From: a virus
Length of the DNA stretch: 21,969 bases
Direction: 5' to 3' (one strand)
Virus record (IMG/VR): IMGVR_UViG_3300042518_001233
Span: 1-21,969 of that record
Under the pieces are notes generated by a model. The model had not been told where the DNA came from. It did no database searches and saw only the letters and a list, made by a program, of their open reading frames with translations. Both the position numbers and the translations under genes were made by a program. This document shows, piece after piece, positions 3,774 through 14,232 of this stretch. The stretch's first letter is position 1. Each line of letters begins with the position of its first letter.

Positions 3774-4862
3774 ATGCCCTCCAATATTCGCATCAAACGC
3801 AGACTTACCGGCGCAGCCGGAGCCCCAGCCAGCCTGCTCGCAGGCGAGCCAGCCTGGAATAAAGTAAACGAGGTTCTCTATCTCGGTTCCGAAAATTCCA
3901 TCGACGCAGTAGCAGGCCGTGGCGCAGTCGTCATGCTCGACGGCGCACAGACCGTTGCAGGCGTCAAAACCTTCAGCGACACCATCACCGGCTCCGTCTC
4001 CGGCAACGCAGGCACAGCCACCGCGCTCCAGACTGCCCGCGACATCTCGCTTACTGGCGATGTCACAGGCACAGCCAGCGCCTTTAATGGTTCGGCCAAC
4101 GCCTCCATCTCCGCCACTCTGGCCAACAGCGGCGTCTCAGCAGGCACGCACACTAAAGTCACCGTGGACGCCAAAGGCCGCGTCACCGTTGGTGCAAACC
4201 TCGAAGCCAGCGACATCCCCACGCTCACCGCGTCCAAAGTCTCCGACTTCGACACCCAGGTCCGCTCCAGCCGCCTCGACCAGATGGCCGCGCCAACCGC
4301 GTCCGTTTCGCTCAACAGCCAGAAGATCACAGGCCTCGCCGAGCCCTCGGCCTCCAGCGACGCTTCCACCAAGGGCTATGTGGACACCGCAGTCAGCAAC
4401 CTCGTTGACGGCGCTCCCGACCTCCTCAACACGCTGAACGAAATCGCCGCCGCGATTGCCGATGACGCGAACTACGCGACGACCGTGACCACTGCCCTGG
4501 GCACAAAATTGGTCAAGTCCAGCAACCTCAGCGACCTCACCGACGCCTCGGCCGCCCGCACAAACCTCGGACTCGCCATTGGCACCAATGTCCAGGCTTA
4601 CGACGGCACACTCGCCGCCCTCGCAGGAGTCACCGTAGCCGCCGACAAGGTTATCTACGCCACCGGCGCGGATCAGTTCGCCACAAGCGACCTCTCCAGC
4701 TACGGCCGCAGCCTCATCGACGACGCCTCCGCCTCCGATGCCCGCACCACGCTCGGCCTCGGCAGCATCGCCACACAAGCCGCAAACAATGTCGCCATCA
4801 CCGGCGGCAGCATCAGCGGCGTCACCATCGACGACATCACCATCGACGGCGGCAGCTTCTAG
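3774..4862 (+). CDS. Tail fibre protein with Mtd-like N-terminal adaptor
   Basis: A 362-residue fibre protein. Residues 1-40 (NIRIKRRLTGAAGAP, then LLAGEPAWN and VLYLG) resemble the N-terminal attachment module of phage fibre and tropism-determinant proteins: 'KRxxxxxxxPxxLxxGExAxNxxxxxLYxG'. The middle (about 60-125) has the repeats QTVAGVKTFSDT, LTGDVTGTASAF and NGSANASISATL, typical of trimeric fibre shafts. Around 190-205 is EPSASSDASTKGYVDTA, a widespread fibre motif. The C-terminus ends in ITGGSISGVTIDDITIDGGSF-type strands, like the short beta-helical tips of some phage fibres. No obvious receptor-binding head is present, so other fibre proteins may attach. Trimer formation is inferred from the family. 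Confidence 0.8.
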   Translation: MPSNIRIKRRLTGAAGAPASLLAGEPAWNKVNEVLYLGSENSIDAVAGRGAVVMLDGAQTVAGVKTFSDTITGSVSGNAGTATALQTARDISLTGDVTGTASAFNGSANASISATLANSGVSAGTHTKVTVDAKGRVTVGANLEASDIPTLTASKVSDFDTQVRSSRLDQMAAPTASVSLNSQKITGLAEPSASSDASTKGYVDTAVSNLVDGAPDLLNTLNEIAAAIADDANYATTVTTALGTKLVKSSNLSDLTDASAARTNLGLAIGTNVQAYDGTLAALAGVTVAADKVIYATGADQFATSDLSSYGRSLIDDASASDARTTLGLGSIATQAANNVAITGGSISGVTIDDITIDGGSF

Positions 4863-5334: not shown

Positions 5335-6699
5335 ATGATCGCAAACGCACTCCCTCGCCCGCTCACCGCAGGCTCAGTTGACAACGCCATTCTCCGAGCA
5401 GACGGCACGGACGGCACAATCCTCCAATCCTCCGGCCTCATCGTGGACGATGCGATTATTGCATACTCAGCCACTGGCGATGCGGCTACCGATGTCATCA
5501 CGGCAACAGGTCATAATTTTTCCAGTAATCAGACCGTGCTTTTCAGCGCCATCACTGGTGGCGCTGGGCTGGCTGCAAACACCGTCTATTTCGTCCGCAA
5601 CCCATCTGGCAACACCTTCCAACTCTCGACCACCAGCGGCGGCGCAGCCATCAATTTCACCACCAACATCACCGCTGGAACGGTCATCGCCATCCAAGCA
5701 AATGTGGCCATTTCGCAAAACACCACCGAGACCAACTCCTCGCTCGTTCTCACGCCGAAAGGCGTAGGTGCGCTGATCGCTGGCCCCAAGCCGGACGGAA
5801 CAGCAGTTGGCGGGAATGCGCGAGGTAGTAGAGCGGTTGATTTGCAAATAACACGCGCAGCATCAACGCAAGTTGCAAGCGGAGCAAACGCCTTTATTGG
5901 TAACGGTCAAAATAATAGAAGCTCAGGCCTTTATGCTGTTGTGGTCGGAGGGTCTGGAAACAGCGCAACTGGGGCAGGAACTTCCGATGCTGGGTCTGGC
6001 GTTGTTTGCGGTGCAAACAATACTGCATCTGGAGATGTTGGCTCATTTGTAGGTGGTGGTTTGGGAAATACCGCAAGCGGCAGCAGAGCATTTGTTGGCG
6101 GTGGTCAATTTAATACAGCCGGAACTGGATTATATCCAACTGTTGTAGGTGGTTATACAAATATAGCAAGCTCAAATTCATCATTTGTCGGCGGCGGTGC
6201 TTTTAATACAGCATCGGGCGCCGCTTCTGCAATTTTAGGAGGCAGTTCAGCCGTAGCTGACCGAGCAGGAATGCAAGCTCATGCTTTAGATCCTTTTGCT
6301 GTTGCAGGCGATGCCCAACGCGCACGGTTTGTCATGCGGAACAAGACAACAACGAACAGCGCAGTCGAGCTTTTCTTGGACGGCATCAGCGCTCGCCTCA
6401 CCATCCCGTCCGGCAAGGTTCTGGCTCTGACAATCAACATCTGTGGCATAAGCAGCACCGGAGGAGCAGTCGCACACTACATGCGGCAGTATGCTCTCAA
6501 GAATGTCTCTGGAACCTGCACGGAGGTTTACGCCCCAGTCACCATCGGAACCGACAACGCCGCAGGAACCAGCATTGCCTTAAGCGCATACGATGTTGGA
6601 GCCGTAGAAGCCCTCCGCGTTCAAGTCACCGGAACAGCCTCCACAATCTGGCGATGGGTGGCCAGCGTCGATGCCGTCGAAATCGCCTTCGGAACTTAA
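5335..6699 (+). CDS. Tail fibre with YadA-like beta-roll repeats
   Basis: A 454-residue fibre. Residues 1-40 (TAGSVDNAILRADGT) look like a fibre base. Residues 54-112 contain a small module with ATGHNFSSNQTVLF, LAANTVYFV and NTFQLS, similar to the HGL...GxxVxF...NTFxL module common in phage structural proteins. Residues 189-295 carry seven copies of a VGGGxxNTASG-type repeat about 15 residues apart, the hallmark of YadA-head-like left-handed beta-rolls in trimeric adhesins. The C-terminal 130 residues (RFVMRNKTTTNSAVELFLDG onward) are probably a globular tip. The repeat region has lower GC than its flanks. No Shine-Dalgarno site; start fixed by close spacing to the previous stop. Confidence 0.8.
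   Translation: MIANALPRPLTAGSVDNAILRADGTDGTILQSSGLIVDDAIIAYSATGDAATDVITATGHNFSSNQTVLFSAITGGAGLAANTVYFVRNPSGNTFQLSTTSGGAAINFTTNITAGTVIAIQANVAISQNTTETNSSLVLTPKGVGALIAGPKPDGTAVGGNARGSRAVDLQITRAASTQVASGANAFIGNGQNNRSSGLYAVVVGGSGNSATGAGTSDAGSGVVCGANNTASGDVGSFVGGGLGNTASGSRAFVGGGQFNTAGTGLYPTVVGGYTNIASSNSSFVGGGAFNTASGAASAILGGSSAVADRAGMQAHALDPFAVAGDAQRARFVMRNKTTTNSAVELFLDGISARLTIPSGKVLALTINICGISSTGGAVAHYMRQYALKNVSGTCTEVYAPVTIGTDNAAGTSIALSAYDVGAVEALRVQVTGTASTIWRWVASVDAVEIAFGT
5878..6258 (+). repeat. YadA-type beta-roll repeat array in a fibre gene
   Basis: This codes for about seven turns of GG-x-x-NTASG type at residues 189, 204, 224, 239, 254, 270 and 285 of the fibre. The spacing is close to 15 residues with one 20-residue step, which suggests an insertion in one turn. 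Hand-counted GC for 5821-6300 is about 49%, against 55-68% in nearby backbone genes. Confidence 0.75.
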
Positions 6700-6712
6700 C
6701 CAAACACACACC

Positions 6713-6952
6713 ATGAGAACATACGGACTTATATTCGCAGACGGACGCAAGGAACTCGCCAGCATCGTGCTGGACGAAAACGACGAGCCACGCATCGACA
6801 CCATCCGCCCATATCCCTGCCCCGAAGATTGGGTCGATCCGCAGATCATCCCCCTCGTCAAAATCGACCAACCCGAAAGCGGCGACTGGGAACCGAACCT
6901 CGTCTGGTTCGCAGATCGCGTCGAGCGCCAGTGGATTCCAGCTAACTCCTAA
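6713..6952 (+). CDS. Small conserved-type phage protein after a fibre gene
   Basis: A 79-residue protein starting MRTYGLIFADGRKELASIV. It is acidic and Pro/Trp-rich, with EDWVDPQIIPL, WEPNLVWFADRVERQW and no signal peptide. Small proteins directly after a fibre gene are often fibre-assembly chaperones, and the Trp-rich '..NLVW..D.VE..W' ending recalls such proteins, but I do not recognise the family and this is inference. The ATG at 6713 follows a TAACCAAACAC-type leader nearly identical to that before the next gene (6965). Longer starts upstream would overlap the fibre gene. Confidence 0.5.
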   Translation: MRTYGLIFADGRKELASIVLDENDEPRIDTIRPYPCPEDWVDPQIIPLVKIDQPESGDWEPNLVWFADRVERQWIPANS

Positions 6953-6964
6953 CCAAACACGACC

Positions 6965-7702
6965 ATGCCAAACGAACTGAATATCGCCCTCGCCACCACC
7001 GGCCTCACCGTCACCGCCCAGCCCTACCAAAACGGAGCCGCCGTAGGCTCTGCCATCTCCTGCCCGGAAACCGGAAGCACCGGATTCTACTCTGGCAACA
7101 TGGCAGGCAGCTCAGGAACATACCAAATCGCGTTCCGCGCCTCTGGAGCCAATGTCGGCAGCGGCAGCATCGTGTGGGATGGAACCAACGAAATCTCCCC
7201 AAGCACCCTCACTGCCGCGCAAGTCAACGCCGAAGCGGACACAGCCCTTGCCGATGTCGGCCTCACAAGCACCGTTACCGGGCGCATCGACGCCGCGATC
7301 TCATCAAGGCTATCGCCGTCGGGAACGCTTGCCGTTGTGACCACGCTCACAAATGCGCCGACCAGCGTCACGCCGAGCGACATCTGGAGCCACGCCACCC
7401 GCACGATCACTGGCGGCACGGTCGATACTTTGACCAACGCGCCAACCGTGCCAAGCGCCGCTTCAATCCGCGCTGAAATCGACAGCAACAGCACCCAGCT
7501 CGCCGCAGTGAAAGCAAAAACGGACCTGCTCCCTGCCTCACCCGCAGCGACCGGAGACATCCCTACAGCCGCACAGAACGCCACGGCCGTCTGGTCCAAA
7601 CCGGCAAATGAATTGACGGTGGCAGACTCCATCGGTGAACGCGCCAAGCAACAAAGCACGGTAGCAATTACTGGCGCTCAACTCGCAGCCGCCCTCAGCT
7701 AA
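6965..7702 (+). CDS. Putative tail/fibre-associated structural protein
   Basis: A 245-residue protein. The first 75 residues form a beta-rich domain (LNIALATTGLTVTAQPYQNG, then GFYSGNM, SGTYQIAFRASG and GSIVWDG). This pattern is common in phage baseplate or fibre N-terminal domains that precede repeats. The rest is Ala/Thr-rich with SDIWSHATRTITGG and QNATAVWSKPANEL, two copies of a 'xxxVW/IWxxxxxxL' unit frequent in phage fibre-like proteins. The C-terminus (LTVADSIGERAKQQS) is helical. The start is 13 bases after the previous stop. The stop overlaps the ATG of the holin-like gene by one base, which joins the fibre block to the lysis block. Confidence 0.55.
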   Translation: MPNELNIALATTGLTVTAQPYQNGAAVGSAISCPETGSTGFYSGNMAGSSGTYQIAFRASGANVGSGSIVWDGTNEISPSTLTAAQVNAEADTALADVGLTSTVTGRIDAAISSRLSPSGTLAVVTTLTNAPTSVTPSDIWSHATRTITGGTVDTLTNAPTVPSAASIRAEIDSNSTQLAAVKAKTDLLPASPAATGDIPTAAQNATAVWSKPANELTVADSIGERAKQQSTVAITGAQLAAALS

Positions 7703-10455: not shown

Positions 10456-10779
10456 ATGTATTTAGTAAATCCTTCCAGTTTTCAAACCGCTCGCCCACGG
10501 CAGCAAATGCCAGCGCAGCGCCAATCCCAGCAGAGCGGGCCGGTTGGTCCGACTCAAGCCCCCCAGGGAATGCCGCAGGCGCAGCAAATGGCGCAACAGC
10601 AAATGCCAACTTTAGGTCAATCCATGGCCCAGATGGGCGCTATCTACGGATTACCTCAAGGTCAACAGCAAATGCCAGCGCAGCGCCAATCCCAGCAGAG
10701 CGGGCCGGTTGGTCCGACTCAAGCCCCCCAGGGAATGCAGCGGGCTGCAATACAAAGACGATCTCCATTTAGATTCTAA
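10456..10779 (+). CDS. Gln/Pro-rich low-complexity protein with internal duplication
   Basis: A 107-residue protein made almost only of Gln, Pro, Met, Ala, Arg and Ser (QQMPAQRQSQQSGPVGPTQA repeated, ending QRRSPFRF). The chain holds two copies of the same 24-residue block, one near residue 16 and one near residue 71, coded by exact 73-bp repeats. It looks disordered. The stop shares one base with the next ATG, and the reading frame fits the operon; an overlapping frame (10422-10772) also carries the repeat but gives a less tidy junction. A role in linking or filling the tail hub or in DNA packing is a guess from composition and place only. Confidence 0.55.
   Translation: MYLVNPSSFQTARPRQQMPAQRQSQQSGPVGPTQAPQGMPQAQQMAQQQMPTLGQSMAQMGAIYGLPQGQQQMPAQRQSQQSGPVGPTQAPQGMQRAAIQRRSPFRF
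10501..10573 (+). repeat. 73-bp perfect direct repeat, copy 1
   Basis: Bases 10501-10573 are identical to 10666-10738 (start 165 bases apart, in frame). The repeat makes a duplicated Gln/Pro-rich block in the encoded protein. Perfect identity suggests a recent duplication or ongoing gene conversion. Confidence 0.9.
10666..10738 (+). repeat. 73-bp perfect direct repeat, copy 2
   Basis: Second copy of the repeat at 10501-10573, with no difference over 73 bases. The offset of 165 bases is divisible by 3, so both copies are read in the same frame. Confidence 0.9.
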
Positions 10780-12680
10780 TGCCCGATGACCAAACTATAG
10801 TAGAAGGCGACGCCGGATTCCTCGGCATGGCCAGCCGCTTAAACCCGCTGCAACTCCAGCCGGGAATGGTCCAATACGCCGAAAACATGCGCCTCGACCG
10901 AGGCGTCGCGCAGACGCGCAAAGGCGCGAAGCGACTCGGCGATGGAATCTCGGCAGGCACGCAGCCTCTCACTCTCCCATTTGTGCTGGATGCCAATGCC
11001 CGCGTGCGCACGATCTACAGCGGCGGCATCTTCGCCAGCGGCGTTTTCAGCTCGCCAAACTACGACGATGAAAATGAATACATCGTTCTCTGCGGGCCGA
11101 CCTCGGCTTTTCTCTACCGGCAGGATGAGCCTATCGAAGAGATCAGCTATCCCGCCACCGGCACAGCGTCCGACGAGATCATCGAGCCCACGGACAGCGT
11201 TTCGACGATACAGGCTTTCAACCGTTTCTACCTCCTGCGCGAGGCCGACATGACTTTGCCTGGCTGGGATTGGAAATACACCACGGCCAGCGGCATCGCG
11301 GTCTCTGGCACCACGGCCACCGTCCACATCACCGCCCATGGCCTCGCTGCTGGCCAGCGGGTGCGGATAGAGGAGGGGAGCCAAGCGGCATTCCAAGGGC
11401 ATGAGTATGACATCCTCACCGCTACGGCAAATGCCTTCACCGTCGCCGTGCCCGCTGGCACATCGCCGGATGTCACCGCCGACATCGCAATCCGCCGCGT
11501 CAAAGCCCCGCTCTGGTGGGATGGCTCGACGATGGAGTTTCAACGCGCCGCCTCGGGCGTGCCTGCCGAGGGCGTGACCTTCAAGACCCTGCGCAGCACC
11601 GGTTGGGCCAGCTACATCGGAAACCGGCTGTGGATCCCCGATGGCCGCGACACCGTGGCCATCTCGGATGTTCTCGACCCCGACCTCTACGATCCCTTTT
11701 TCCAATCTTTCCGCGCCAACCAGGGCAGCAACGACTACCTGGTTGCGATACACCCATGGGTCGAGGGGCAAGCGCTGGTCTTCATGCGCAACTCGATCTG
11801 GCTTGCCAACCTTACCGACACCAGCAACGCGACGGGAGACACCTTCACGGTGGACTCTGCCGTTTCCAAGCTCACGCTCCTCACCGACGAGATCGGCTGC
11901 GTAGCCCGCCGCTCGATCCAGACCGCCGGTCAGTTTGTGTTTTTCCTCTCCGACGCCGGAGTTTACCGGCTAGACACCCAGCTCGACCTCAAGCTCCGTG
12001 CCAACACCCAGCCTCTCTCGGACCCCATTGCCGACCAACTTGACGAGATCAATACCGACTACGCTCATTTCGCCGTAGGCCGGTGGTGGAACAATCGCTA
12101 CTACCTCGCCGTGCCCATCGGCGAGAACGCCACGGCAAACAACACGCTCTTCCTCTGGAACGCGCTGAACTCCCAATGGGAAAGCCGCGACACCTACGCC
12201 ATCAACCTCGACGAGCTCCTGGTCGCCGCCTACTCCAGCCAGCGCCGCCTCTTCGCCGCCAGCCGCGCCGGAACCCTCTTCCTGCTCGATGAACTCGACT
12301 ACGGCGACGATGTGCCCTACGCGAACGCGCAAGACCTCTACACCGAAATCCCCTCCGAACTCATTACCCGCCGCTACGGCTGGGGAAGCCTCAATACCAA
12401 GCGCCTCACCCGAGCCAAAGCCAGCGTGCTCCTGCCAGACGCCTCCGCCTGCACACTCGATGCCGTGACGACCGACTACGACGCTGACTTCCAAGTCGCC
12501 GCCCTGGAGAACACCACCGGCGAGGAGGAAGATTACACGCTTAAAGCCCCCCTGCGCTGCAAAGCCACCGGCCTCGACCTCCGCTTCCGCACGCAAAACG
12601 GCCGACCCATCCTCCGCCAAATCAGCGCCGAAGCCACCCGCTCCGGCTTTGACCCCACCGAAACCCGCACATTGAATTAA
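10779..12680 (+). CDS. Tail hub/stabilisation-type protein (P22 gp10-like or tail tubular B-like)
   Basis: A 633-residue protein. The start DAGFLGMASRLNPLQL, then MVQYAENMRLDRGVAQTRKG matches the opening 'GFxGxxxRxxPxxLxxGxxxxAxNxxxDRGxxxxRxG' of podovirus tail-hub and stabilisation proteins. Later blocks such as GNRLWIPDGRDTVAISDV, QALVFMRNSIWLANL and AGQFVFFLSDAGVYRLD look like blades of a beta-propeller, as known for such proteins. Residues 170-232 carry an inserted module (VHITAHGLAAGQRVRIEEG, then ANAFTVAV) of a kind shared with the 5335 fibre. It would close the channel under the portal and carry fibres. The ATG overlaps the preceding stop by one base. Confidence 0.7.
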   Translation: MPDDQTIVEGDAGFLGMASRLNPLQLQPGMVQYAENMRLDRGVAQTRKGAKRLGDGISAGTQPLTLPFVLDANARVRTIYSGGIFASGVFSSPNYDDENEYIVLCGPTSAFLYRQDEPIEEISYPATGTASDEIIEPTDSVSTIQAFNRFYLLREADMTLPGWDWKYTTASGIAVSGTTATVHITAHGLAAGQRVRIEEGSQAAFQGHEYDILTATANAFTVAVPAGTSPDVTADIAIRRVKAPLWWDGSTMEFQRAASGVPAEGVTFKTLRSTGWASYIGNRLWIPDGRDTVAISDVLDPDLYDPFFQSFRANQGSNDYLVAIHPWVEGQALVFMRNSIWLANLTDTSNATGDTFTVDSAVSKLTLLTDEIGCVARRSIQTAGQFVFFLSDAGVYRLDTQLDLKLRANTQPLSDPIADQLDEINTDYAHFAVGRWWNNRYYLAVPIGENATANNTLFLWNALNSQWESRDTYAINLDELLVAAYSSQRRLFAASRAGTLFLLDELDYGDDVPYANAQDLYTEIPSELITRRYGWGSLNTKRLTRAKASVLLPDASACTLDAVTTDYDADFQVAALENTTGEEEDYTLKAPLRCKATGLDLRFRTQNGRPILRQISAEATRSGFDPTETRTLN

Positions 12681-12744: not shown

Positions 12745-14232
12745 ATGGCAACTCTCACTAAAGGCAAAACATTCGTAAACGGGGAACTCGTCACCCCTGC
12801 CAACCTCCACCAGATGGTCGATGCCGCCACCGTCGCCAACATTGTCAACGCCGACATCGCCGCCGCCGCTGCTATTGCCGACACGAAACTTGCGCAGATC
12901 ACCACGGCAGGGAAGGTAGCCAACTCGGCAACCACTGCTACAAACGCCAGCACGGCCAATGCCATTGTGGCTCGCGATGGAAGCGGGAATTTTTCCGCCG
13001 GAACAATCACGGCCAACTTGACCGGGAATGTGACCGGAAATGCCAGCACAGCAACGACAGCAACGACAGCGGCGGCCTGCTCTGGAAATGCCGCTACGGC
13101 AACAACTCTGCAAACGGCCCGCACCATCAATGGTGTCTCTTTTAATGGGTCGGCCAATATCACCGTCACCGCCGCGCCGGACTCGCACACCCACGGGAAT
13201 ATCACCAATTTAGGTGCCATCGGAACGACTGCTGGCTTGCCAATCATTACTGGAACAAGCGGAGTCCTCCAAGCGGGCTCCTTTGGCTCGGCTGTTGGGT
13301 CGTTTTGCCAAGGTAGCGACAGCCGCCTTTCCGACTCCCGCACGCCGACCGATGGGTCTGTCACCGACGCTAAAGTCTCTGCTACGGCGGCAATCGCCGA
13401 TACGAAGCTCGCCACGATAAGCACATCAGGCAAAGTATCTAACTCCGCTACAACAGCTACAAATGCAAATACGGCCAACGCTATCGTGGCTCGGGATGGC
13501 AGCGGAAATTTTAGCGCAGGCACCATCACGGCCAGCTTGTCCGGCAACGCTACTACAGCGACCACCCTGCAAACAACTCGCACAATCAACGGCGTCGAAT
13601 TTAATGGCGGTGCAAACATTACCATTACGGCCGACCCTAACTCGCACACGCATGATGACCGCTACTATACTGAAACAGAGGTAAATACTCTGCTTACAGA
13701 TAAGCAGAAGATCAATGGCAAAATTTCATCTGGATTAAATTGGAATACGAACCAGGGAATTTTGTTTAATATACCAGAAAATGTTCAAAGGATATGTTTA
13801 GTAGTTGAAGATTGGTCTCATAACACTGCCGGACAAGGAATTGTTTTAGTTGGAACAACGACAGCAGGAATACTTAATGCGCAAGGTCCAATTATTGTAT
13901 ACCCATACTTTAATAATGTCAATAATGTTGAATCCTTTCAAGGGTTTGCAATTACAGGGAGAGCTAATACAACTGCAAACCATGCGGGAGTTTTTGATTT
14001 TTTTATAGGCAAAAACCCTGATTATTATCTTAATAATAATTTACCTGTTAATAGATTATTTTGTAGATCAAATTTACAACAATATACTGGAGGCACTTTT
14101 ACATCTACATTATTAAATGGAGCTGGTTTTGTTGATATCCCCGGCGTTCTAAATCAAATTTTACTAAGACCTTTTTATGGATCGACAAATCCAGGGTCCC
14201 GCGTGTCGGCCACTTTATACTACTATTACTAA
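12745..14232 (+). CDS. Tail fibre with duplicated shaft and AT-rich C-terminal head
   Basis: A 495-residue fibre. The N-terminus (MATLTKGKTFVNGELVTPAN, then ANIVNADIAAAAAIADTKL) is a known fibre opening ('NIVNADIxxxAAIAxTKL'). Residues 44-150 and 217-303 are a duplicated shaft unit, each with VARDGSGNFSAGTITA, TINGVxFNG and SHTH. Between them is the motif GSDSRLSDSRTPTDGS. Residues 301-320 (HTHDDRYYTETEVNTLL) are a common pre-head linker. The last about 180 residues (from about 320) are aromatic- and Asn-rich (NNVNNVESF, TLYYYY), coded by DNA of only about 34% GC. This is probably the receptor-binding head, acquired from elsewhere. No Shine-Dalgarno site. Confidence 0.8.
   Translation: MATLTKGKTFVNGELVTPANLHQMVDAATVANIVNADIAAAAAIADTKLAQITTAGKVANSATTATNASTANAIVARDGSGNFSAGTITANLTGNVTGNASTATTATTAAACSGNAATATTLQTARTINGVSFNGSANITVTAAPDSHTHGNITNLGAIGTTAGLPIITGTSGVLQAGSFGSAVGSFCQGSDSRLSDSRTPTDGSVTDAKVSATAAIADTKLATISTSGKVSNSATTATNANTANAIVARDGSGNFSAGTITASLSGNATTATTLQTTRTINGVEFNGGANITITADPNSHTHDDRYYTETEVNTLLTDKQKINGKISSGLNWNTNQGILFNIPENVQRICLVVEDWSHNTAGQGIVLVGTTTAGILNAQGPIIVYPYFNNVNNVESFQGFAITGRANTTANHAGVFDFFIGKNPDYYLNNNLPVNRLFCRSNLQQYTGGTFTSTLLNGAGFVDIPGVLNQILLRPFYGSTNPGSRVSATLYYYY
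12874..13194 (+). repeat. Fibre shaft duplication, copy 1
   Basis: Codes for residues 44-150 of the fibre. It shares with copy 2 (13393-13653) the blocks IADTKLA, NSATTATNA, VARDGSGNFSAGTIT and TINGV. Copy 1 is longer by about 20 residues (an extra Thr/Ala-rich GNASTATTATTAAACSG run). The protein repeat is much better kept than the DNA, so the duplication is old. Confidence 0.8.
13393..13653 (+). repeat. Fibre shaft duplication, copy 2
   Basis: Codes for residues 217-303, the shorter second copy of the shaft unit at 12874-13194. It leads straight into the SHTHDDRYYT linker before the AT-rich head. Confidence 0.8.
13681..14220. other. AT-rich island coding for the fibre head
   Basis: Hand count of nine 60-base lines gives 186 G or C in 540 (34%), against 55-68% in backbone lines. 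Codons such as TTA, ATA and AAT are frequent here and rare elsewhere. The change starts just after the DDRYYTETEVN linker, so the switch matches a domain border. This points to transfer of a receptor-binding domain. Confidence 0.85.

Follow-up and report, generated by a model that had tools for sequence, protein, structure and literature searches.

Layout of the fibre gene

The window, a virus record of 21,969 bases analysed over its whole length, carries at 5335–6699 a gene whose product is a phage tail fibre, judged from its homology to fibres and from its structural neighbourhood. A PHROG tail-fibre match covers residues 49–221 (E = 1.7e-8), and fibres of PHROG 9370, 4711 and 7765 match residues 49–225 with E values from 1.7e-8 to 3.1e-7. 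The surroundings are those of phage structural genes: ORF 94–2187 resembles an annotated portal protein (MW202524, 23%) and a protein of C75C1 (28%), and ORF 10779–12680 resembles the annotated head closure protein of C75C1 (28%). The features discussed below are these:

5335–6699, + strand: tail-fibre gene (open reading frame, 454 aa) with a conserved N arm, a hypervariable beta-roll and a conserved C domain
5335–5808, + strand: N arm, aa 1–158, with 81–92% amino-acid identity in the relatives L001–L010
5809–6324, + strand: exchangeable cassette from GGNARG to about GDAQ, a predicted left-handed beta-roll of UspA1/YadA type (GC3 0.27), placed by the GC3 profile, the identity drop against the relative L003 and the UspA1 matches
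5878–6258, + strand: seven-turn repeat region as first annotated, placed by turn spacing and G+C count
6325–6696, + strand: C domain; among the 38 other loci that have a C match, 36 are 60–92% identical to it in amino acids
6713–6952, + strand: 79-aa protein directly 3' of the fibre, a candidate for its chaperone or for a partner in its assembly
12745–14232, + strand: another fibre gene, with an AT-rich C-terminal tip at 13681–14229

A scan of viral contigs gave 55 matching loci; from these and the window, 39 yielded N, middle and C parts. The three-part layout is thus common to 39 loci, a set that includes the window's own copy and the duplicates L005/L006/L020, L013/L032, L034/L035 and L039/L040. 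Apart from Cy-LDV1, the relatives come from metagenomic contigs, which are often fragmentary. The middle part ranges from 91 to 225 aa, and the C domain is 37% identical in the remaining two loci, L039 and L040. In a separate ORF of the window (10456–10779, + strand), the 24-residue stretch QQMPAQRQSQQSGPVGPTQAPQGM is present twice in the translation.

The initial annotation had described seven turns about 15 residues apart with one 20-residue step, and this repeat is borne out. Turns of the form N-x-(A/S)-(S/T/G) lie at residues 194, 209, 229, 245, 260, 276 and 291, in steps of 15, 20, 16, 15, 16 and 15, and GG precedes five of the seven. The pattern (GG/GA/GN).{1,2}N.[AST][STG] has seven matches in aa 181–310, two of which overlap in one turn; in 5,000 residue shuffles it was found 0.48 times on average and at most four times. 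The window's roll has the tandem-turn spacing of about 14–16 residues of UspA1/YadA-type heads.

A profile built from 31 rolls and compared with solved structures returned UspA1 (3pr7, E = 2.8e-30; 3ntn, 7.9e-16) and BpaC (7o23, 1.6e-7), together with a grass ice-recrystallisation protein (E = 6.7e-7), and the window fibre as sole query also found UspA1 3pr7 (E = 5.8e-5). When the predicted fibre model was compared with structures, 3pr7 headed the VIA list (Z = 15.1, r.m.s.d. = 9.8 over 152 residues); such a deviation over this length indicates that two domains are set at a different angle from that in 3pr7. Foldseek placed the same structure at rank 19 (88 columns, r.m.s.d. = 2.5, E = 0.016). 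The model was predicted as a single chain, with pLDDT values of 76–91 for aa 241–310 and 46–64 for aa 181–240; the roll's opening 50 residues (aa 181–230) are poorly modelled, at 46–57. Pfam recognized no YadA_head (PF05658) in the window's roll at E up to 1 and gave LbR_Ice_bind at 0.0072, below its cut-off. Among the 31 rolls, YadA_head was found in 10 (best E = 6.5e-15), LbR_Ice_bind in 16 and UspA1_rep in 6.

Judged by the profile and the predicted model, the roll belongs among the left-handed beta-rolls known from UspA1/YadA heads, with the UspA1 head as its nearest predicted likeness. The first description of a trimeric-adhesin-type beta-roll in AT-rich DNA of a phage fibre therefore stands, and the comparisons support a closer likeness to UspA1 than to collagen-binding YadA. 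The fibre would form a trimer. An identity as a trimeric autotransporter adhesin was rejected, as the fibre contains no YadA_anchor domain at E up to 1.

In the N arm, residues 40–122 are predicted to form a small β-barrel akin to the E1 FCCH domain (best VIA Z = 8.1, r.m.s.d. = 2.3, 75 residues); some relatives in the alignment lack this barrel. The C domain (aa 327–454) is a predicted β-sandwich resembling the C domain of T4 gp9 (1qex, Z = 10.1, r.m.s.d. = 2.7, 110 residues) and that of Acinetobacter phage tailspikes (6c72, Z = 8.9), with a weaker structural likeness to TNF-like lectins.

The 79-aa protein accompanies the fibre closely. Of the 38 other family loci, 37 have a homologue on the same strand that starts –1 to 14 bases past the fibre stop codon; the exception is L020, whose contig stops at the fibre. 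These homologues are 56–97% identical, while the rolls vary. The protein is confidently modelled (pLDDT 91), and comparison with Pfam, PHROG, PDB sequences and known folds yielded nothing convincing; against the phage collection, neither it nor the C domain matched any record at E up to 0.01. The protein is possibly a fibre chaperone or assembly partner. Since it stays constant while the roll changes, it should, if a chaperone, act on the conserved C domain.

Exchange of the roll between the arms

In L001–L010, the N arm is 81–92% and the C domain 74–92% identical to that of the window, and the best-matching piece of the middle part is 34–49% identical. L002 and L003 are close kin of the window phage: their portal is 97% and their next gene 97–98% identical to the window's, as are the phosphoesterase of L002 and the upstream fibre of L003 (99% each). 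When the window was compared with L003 in bins of 60 bases, 32 of the 45 bins between 3000 and 5699 had an identity of at least 0.92, and the lowest had 0.75. Identity is 0.50–0.55 over 5820–6299 and 0.75–0.98 over 6300–7199, and this low-identity block coincides with the block of low GC3 described below.

The reverse arrangement, in which similar rolls lie between diverged arms, was found as well. In L004 and L081, 418 of 423 bases of the roll are identical (98.8%), compared to 63% of the 300 bases before it and 65% of the C domain (Fisher p ~1e-40). The corresponding values are 95% for the roll and 86–87% for the arms in L002/L003 (p = 5e-5 and 1e-4), 83% against 59% and 64% in L011/L078, and 79% nucleotide identity against 61% and 57% in L009/L118. 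L008/L012 show a sign of exchange on the N side only, whereas L001/L004 (N 97%, roll 86%, C 91%) and L013/L015 (N 98%, roll 94%, C 91%) show none. L005 and L019 agree in the C domain and in the downstream portion of the roll and differ ahead of it, as would be expected after a crossover inside the roll. These pairs come from 13 that were examined, five of them tested, which had been selected either because their rolls resemble each other or to set them against the window. Nucleotide identity, averaged over the 741 pairs that the 39 loci form, is 0.70 for the N arm, 0.61 for the roll and 0.72 for the C domain. The identities of the two arms correlate at 0.36 with each other and at 0.34 and 0.30 with that of the roll, so that the arms do not agree clearly better with one another; a value of only 0.36 means that the arms, too, are exchanged. 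The roll is swapped as a unit between conserved arms, with ends near GGNARG and GDAQRARFV.

The module at the upstream end is widespread. The pattern GGNARGxxA[VI], derived from the aligned middle parts, occurs in at least 599 viral stretches, and at least 550 of these encode a relative. Further roll ORFs are present in 16 of the 136 sequences with a match (window included), 10 of the 16 being among L041–L055, which were matched by the roll and not by the arms of the window fibre. L048, L050–L053 and L055, all AT-rich viral contigs, contain very large roll ORFs of 1,688–2,346 codons with one or two more roll ORFs nearby. The window holds no second copy of the roll, and a shufflon with silent cassettes was rejected on this ground. 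In a check for diversity-generating retroelements, the reverse transcriptase domain RVT_1 was found in none of 28 records, some of which may be fragments.

Other parts of the window are replaced relative to its close kin L002, namely the stretches 3774–4862 and ~7200–7500 (+ strand), with 60-base identities mostly of 0.4–0.7 and 0.33–0.49.

Third-position composition

The G+C content of 5878–6258 is 48.8%, against 57.3% and 56.5% in the flanks of the same gene and 59.3% in the window; the count of 234 G+C in 480 bases given in the initial annotation is matched exactly at 5821–6300. The difference is larger at third codon positions. GC3 is 0.28 over 5809–6261 and 0.65 and 0.59 in the gene's flanks, and, judged by the window's other genes, these amino acids would be expected to give 0.74 (z = –13). 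Such matched expectations rule out amino-acid composition as the cause of the low GC3. The low-GC3 block spans about 5815–6324, slightly past the region first annotated. When 172-codon stretches of 11 window genes were compared, GC3 below 0.53 was confined to this fibre and to the fibre at 12745–14232. In the latter, the shaft has a GC3 of 0.60 and the tip (13681–14229), the only other AT-rich stretch among the window genes examined, one of 0.22; the tips of its relatives L155 and L156 have the same step and the same value of 0.22.

The step recurs across the family at the ends of the roll. Averaged over 41 loci, GC3 falls from ~0.65 at 20 codons ahead of the first motif (GGNARG) to 0.3 at 25 codons past it, and rises from ~0.4 to 0.7 some 10–20 codons past the closing xDR of the roll. 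GC3 lies below both flanks in 42 of 43 distinct rolls, which were collected with a regular expression in which a GDAQ-like motif had to be followed by 60 codons or more; in L101 and L139 this pattern apparently ended the roll too early, and both were left out of the 41-locus average. In the profile-HMM comparison, rolls were clustered at 60% identity, and in the separate GC3 comparison identical rolls, rolls below 50 aa and those with fewer than 100 flank codons were dropped. Where the flanks predict a GC3 of at least 0.45, the rolls of family fibres have 0.37 against 0.61 expected and are lower in 36 of 40 clusters, 33 of them by more than 0.10, although the independence of the clusters is incomplete. 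Fibres with the GGNxRG motif and a different C domain show no drop (0.20 vs 0.21), which speaks against the motif by itself as the cause of the low GC3; 13 of their 14 clusters are AT-rich, which makes this a weak comparison.

The two arms agree with each other in GC3 better than the roll agrees with either. Over the 39 loci, duplicates included, the N and C arms correlate at r = 0.74 and the roll with the arms at 0.26 and 0.17; over the 43 distinct rolls the values are 0.76, and 0.48 and 0.26. The related rolls of L009 and L118 have a GC3 of 0.26 and 0.22 in backgrounds of ~0.65 and ~0.33, so related rolls occur in both GC-rich and AT-rich phages. Replacement alone does not lower GC3, since other replaced stretches keep values of 0.72–0.78: the upstream fibre has 0.78 in the window and 0.72 in the L002 ORF at the same place, and the replaced part of ORF 6965–7702 has 0.74.

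Origin and role of the roll

We consider it probable that a receptor-facing beta-roll cassette is swapped among phages by recombination near its conserved ends, and that it travels through a pool that includes AT-rich phages. The roll sits in the tail fibre between the conserved N arm and the conserved β-sandwich C domain, and related phages replace it whole by recombination near the GGNARG and GDAQRARFV ends. It would itself be, or bear, the receptor-facing surface, a predicted role in which it may aid attachment to surfaces or polymers, as was first suggested. Resistant hosts would select for new rolls, and changes of host range would maintain the turnover. Rolls would arrive through the pool including AT-rich phages and, in GC-rich phages, would be replaced before their codons adapt. 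A broader reading, to which we give somewhat less than an even chance, is that the receptor-binding modules of phages form an AT-rich gene pool of their own across base compositions, with a turnover that outpaces codon adaptation, and that the roll (5809–6324) and the tip (13681–14229) both stem from it.

The initial annotation had proposed that the segment derives from a bacterial adhesin. The fold and the motif are indeed common to UspA1 and to bacterial surface-type proteins, and the best bacterial match to the roll, from a Bacteroidia MAG, is 52% identical. When the genome collection was searched with just the roll, by a method that works through exact short peptides and is limited to close relatives, 195 patterns matched and four bacterial relatives were confirmed; in the two of these that were scanned, a Peptidase_S74 chaperone domain was present and a YadA anchor was absent at E up to 0.001. 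Among 119 rolls compared, 12 of them bacterial and from four genomes, all 53 of the window's group have another phage roll, and none a bacterial one, as best match; the nearest relative of the window's roll is 52% identical, and no donor was found in this set. The GGNARG module with the roll is carried by most of the viral pattern matches counted above, and most rolls of the family are low in GC3. A recent direct transfer of a bacterial adhesin segment into the window phage is thus highly improbable and already mostly refuted: the nearest rolls lie in phage fibres and are mostly just as AT-rich. Such like composition does not imply that the roll is native, because its composition departs from that of the carrier gene and rolls move between phages.

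The chief rival on composition is that codon-level selection keeps a Gly/Ala/Ser/Asn-rich repeat AT-rich at third positions, with stable mRNA hairpins, restriction palindromes or repeat recombination as its supposed targets, in which case GC3 would be uninformative on origin. Thirty rolls that are only 31–58% identical to the window's are mostly low in GC3, a common feature that recent shared descent does not explain. Bacterial rolls, too, lie slightly below their own genes. They follow these closely (r = 0.89, offset 0.06, seven clusters from four genomes), and where the flanks predict at least 0.45 they have 0.61 against 0.68 and are lower in six of six clusters (at most four genomes), with differences of 0.00–0.05 under a stricter mask; part of the low GC3 may accordingly belong to the roll itself. 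Against such selection, the roll of a Verrucomicrobia MAG (L062) has a GC3 of 0.776 where 0.78 is expected (0.78 vs 0.82 with a broader mask), and phage rolls of high GC3 exist, namely those of L095 (0.85) and L089 (0.65). These two and the rolls of L077, L080, L082 and L096 are at or above expectation, and those of L117, L037 and L079 are within 0.06 of it; as exceptions to the family's composition they also tell against the preferred reading. Family fibres whose flanks predict less than 0.45 show hardly any drop (0.23 vs 0.25, lower in 10 of 14 clusters), and the tip at 13681–14229, whose translation is not a Gly-rich roll, has its GC3 of 0.22 all the same. We regard codon-level selection as an unlikely explanation on this balance.

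On the side of exchange, the chief rival is that the roll could be a length-variable spacer or shaft instead of the receptor-binding part, its variation reflecting relaxed constraint with gain and loss of repeats, while the conserved C domain binds the host. The likeness of the C domain to tailspike tip domains and, more weakly, to TNF-like lectins fits this proposal, as does the wide range of lengths of the middle part. Replacement of the whole cassette in near-identical phages and the 98.8% identical roll between diverged arms, however, exceed what slippage of repeats would produce, and the C domain is kept among phages with differing rolls. A mere spacer seems to us rather doubtful, though less so than codon-level selection, and we retain the swapped receptor-facing cassette as the preferred reading.

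On that reading, the family lets one count how a module, probably receptor-facing, passes from phage to phage while the arms of its gene stay, and how its composition remains out of step with the genome. It opens to direct test the old idea that fibre parts cross between phages with different hosts faster than their codons can adapt, and suggests a simple way of spotting recognition surfaces in uncultured phages. If the AT-rich module pool exists, the surface with which a GC-rich phage recognizes its host would stand out by third-position composition alone.

Mosaicism of tail fibres is classical, and was reportedly described by Haggard-Ljungquist in 1992. What is already known comprises YadA domains in phage fibres and the mosaicism of these fibres; the new element is the decoupled composition. 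Added to this are the internal position of the cassette, the retention of both arms, the counts across a family and a composition that stays apart. Among the matches listed from the open-licence literature, no title or abstract opening concerned swapped beta-rolls of low GC3 in phage fibres.

The top match among predicted viral structures, A0A6J5LQZ0 from an uncultured member of the Caudovirales (E = 4.6e-21, 31% identical over the alignment to the window fibre), is already named 'Head domain of trimeric autotransporter adhesin', so that a head of this kind already has a precedent among phages. Within the phage collection, the fibre matches a single record at E up to 1e-5, the cyanophage Cy-LDV1 (BK059895; L057, 2597–5008; 31% identity); it has the N motif, the roll and the C domain in the same order, and its roll has a GC3 of 0.44–0.49 where 0.64–0.72 is expected from the gene. 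A pelagiphage fibre described by Mizuno et al. 2014 (PMC3909814) has a C-terminal YadA region to which few reads are recruited; there, too, the variable part of the fibre contains a domain of YadA type. There the domain is C-terminal, whereas the roll of the window is internal and followed by a conserved C domain; the term 'GC content' is absent from the main text of that paper. Exchange of receptor-binding parts is described for Alteromonas phages (PMC10579305) and for the carotovoricin fibres of tailocins (PMC13195805). Compared to these, the family of the window swaps an internal roll, keeps both arms and has a decoupled codon composition. Lucks et al. 2008 (PMC2266997) suggest that stretches of odd GC3, and tail genes that are less well adapted, may be due to transfer between phages that infect different hosts; they state that their own study neither supports nor refutes this interpretation of GC3, for which the fibre family of the window allows a direct test. 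With the UspA1 head of Moraxella catarrhalis (3pr7) and the YadA/Hep_Hag repeats, the window's roll has in common a repeat of ~15 residues, GGG-x-x-N-x-A-x-G turns and a predicted left-handed beta-roll; it differs from the UspA1/YadA heads in lying inside a phage fibre, between other arms and without an autotransporter anchor.
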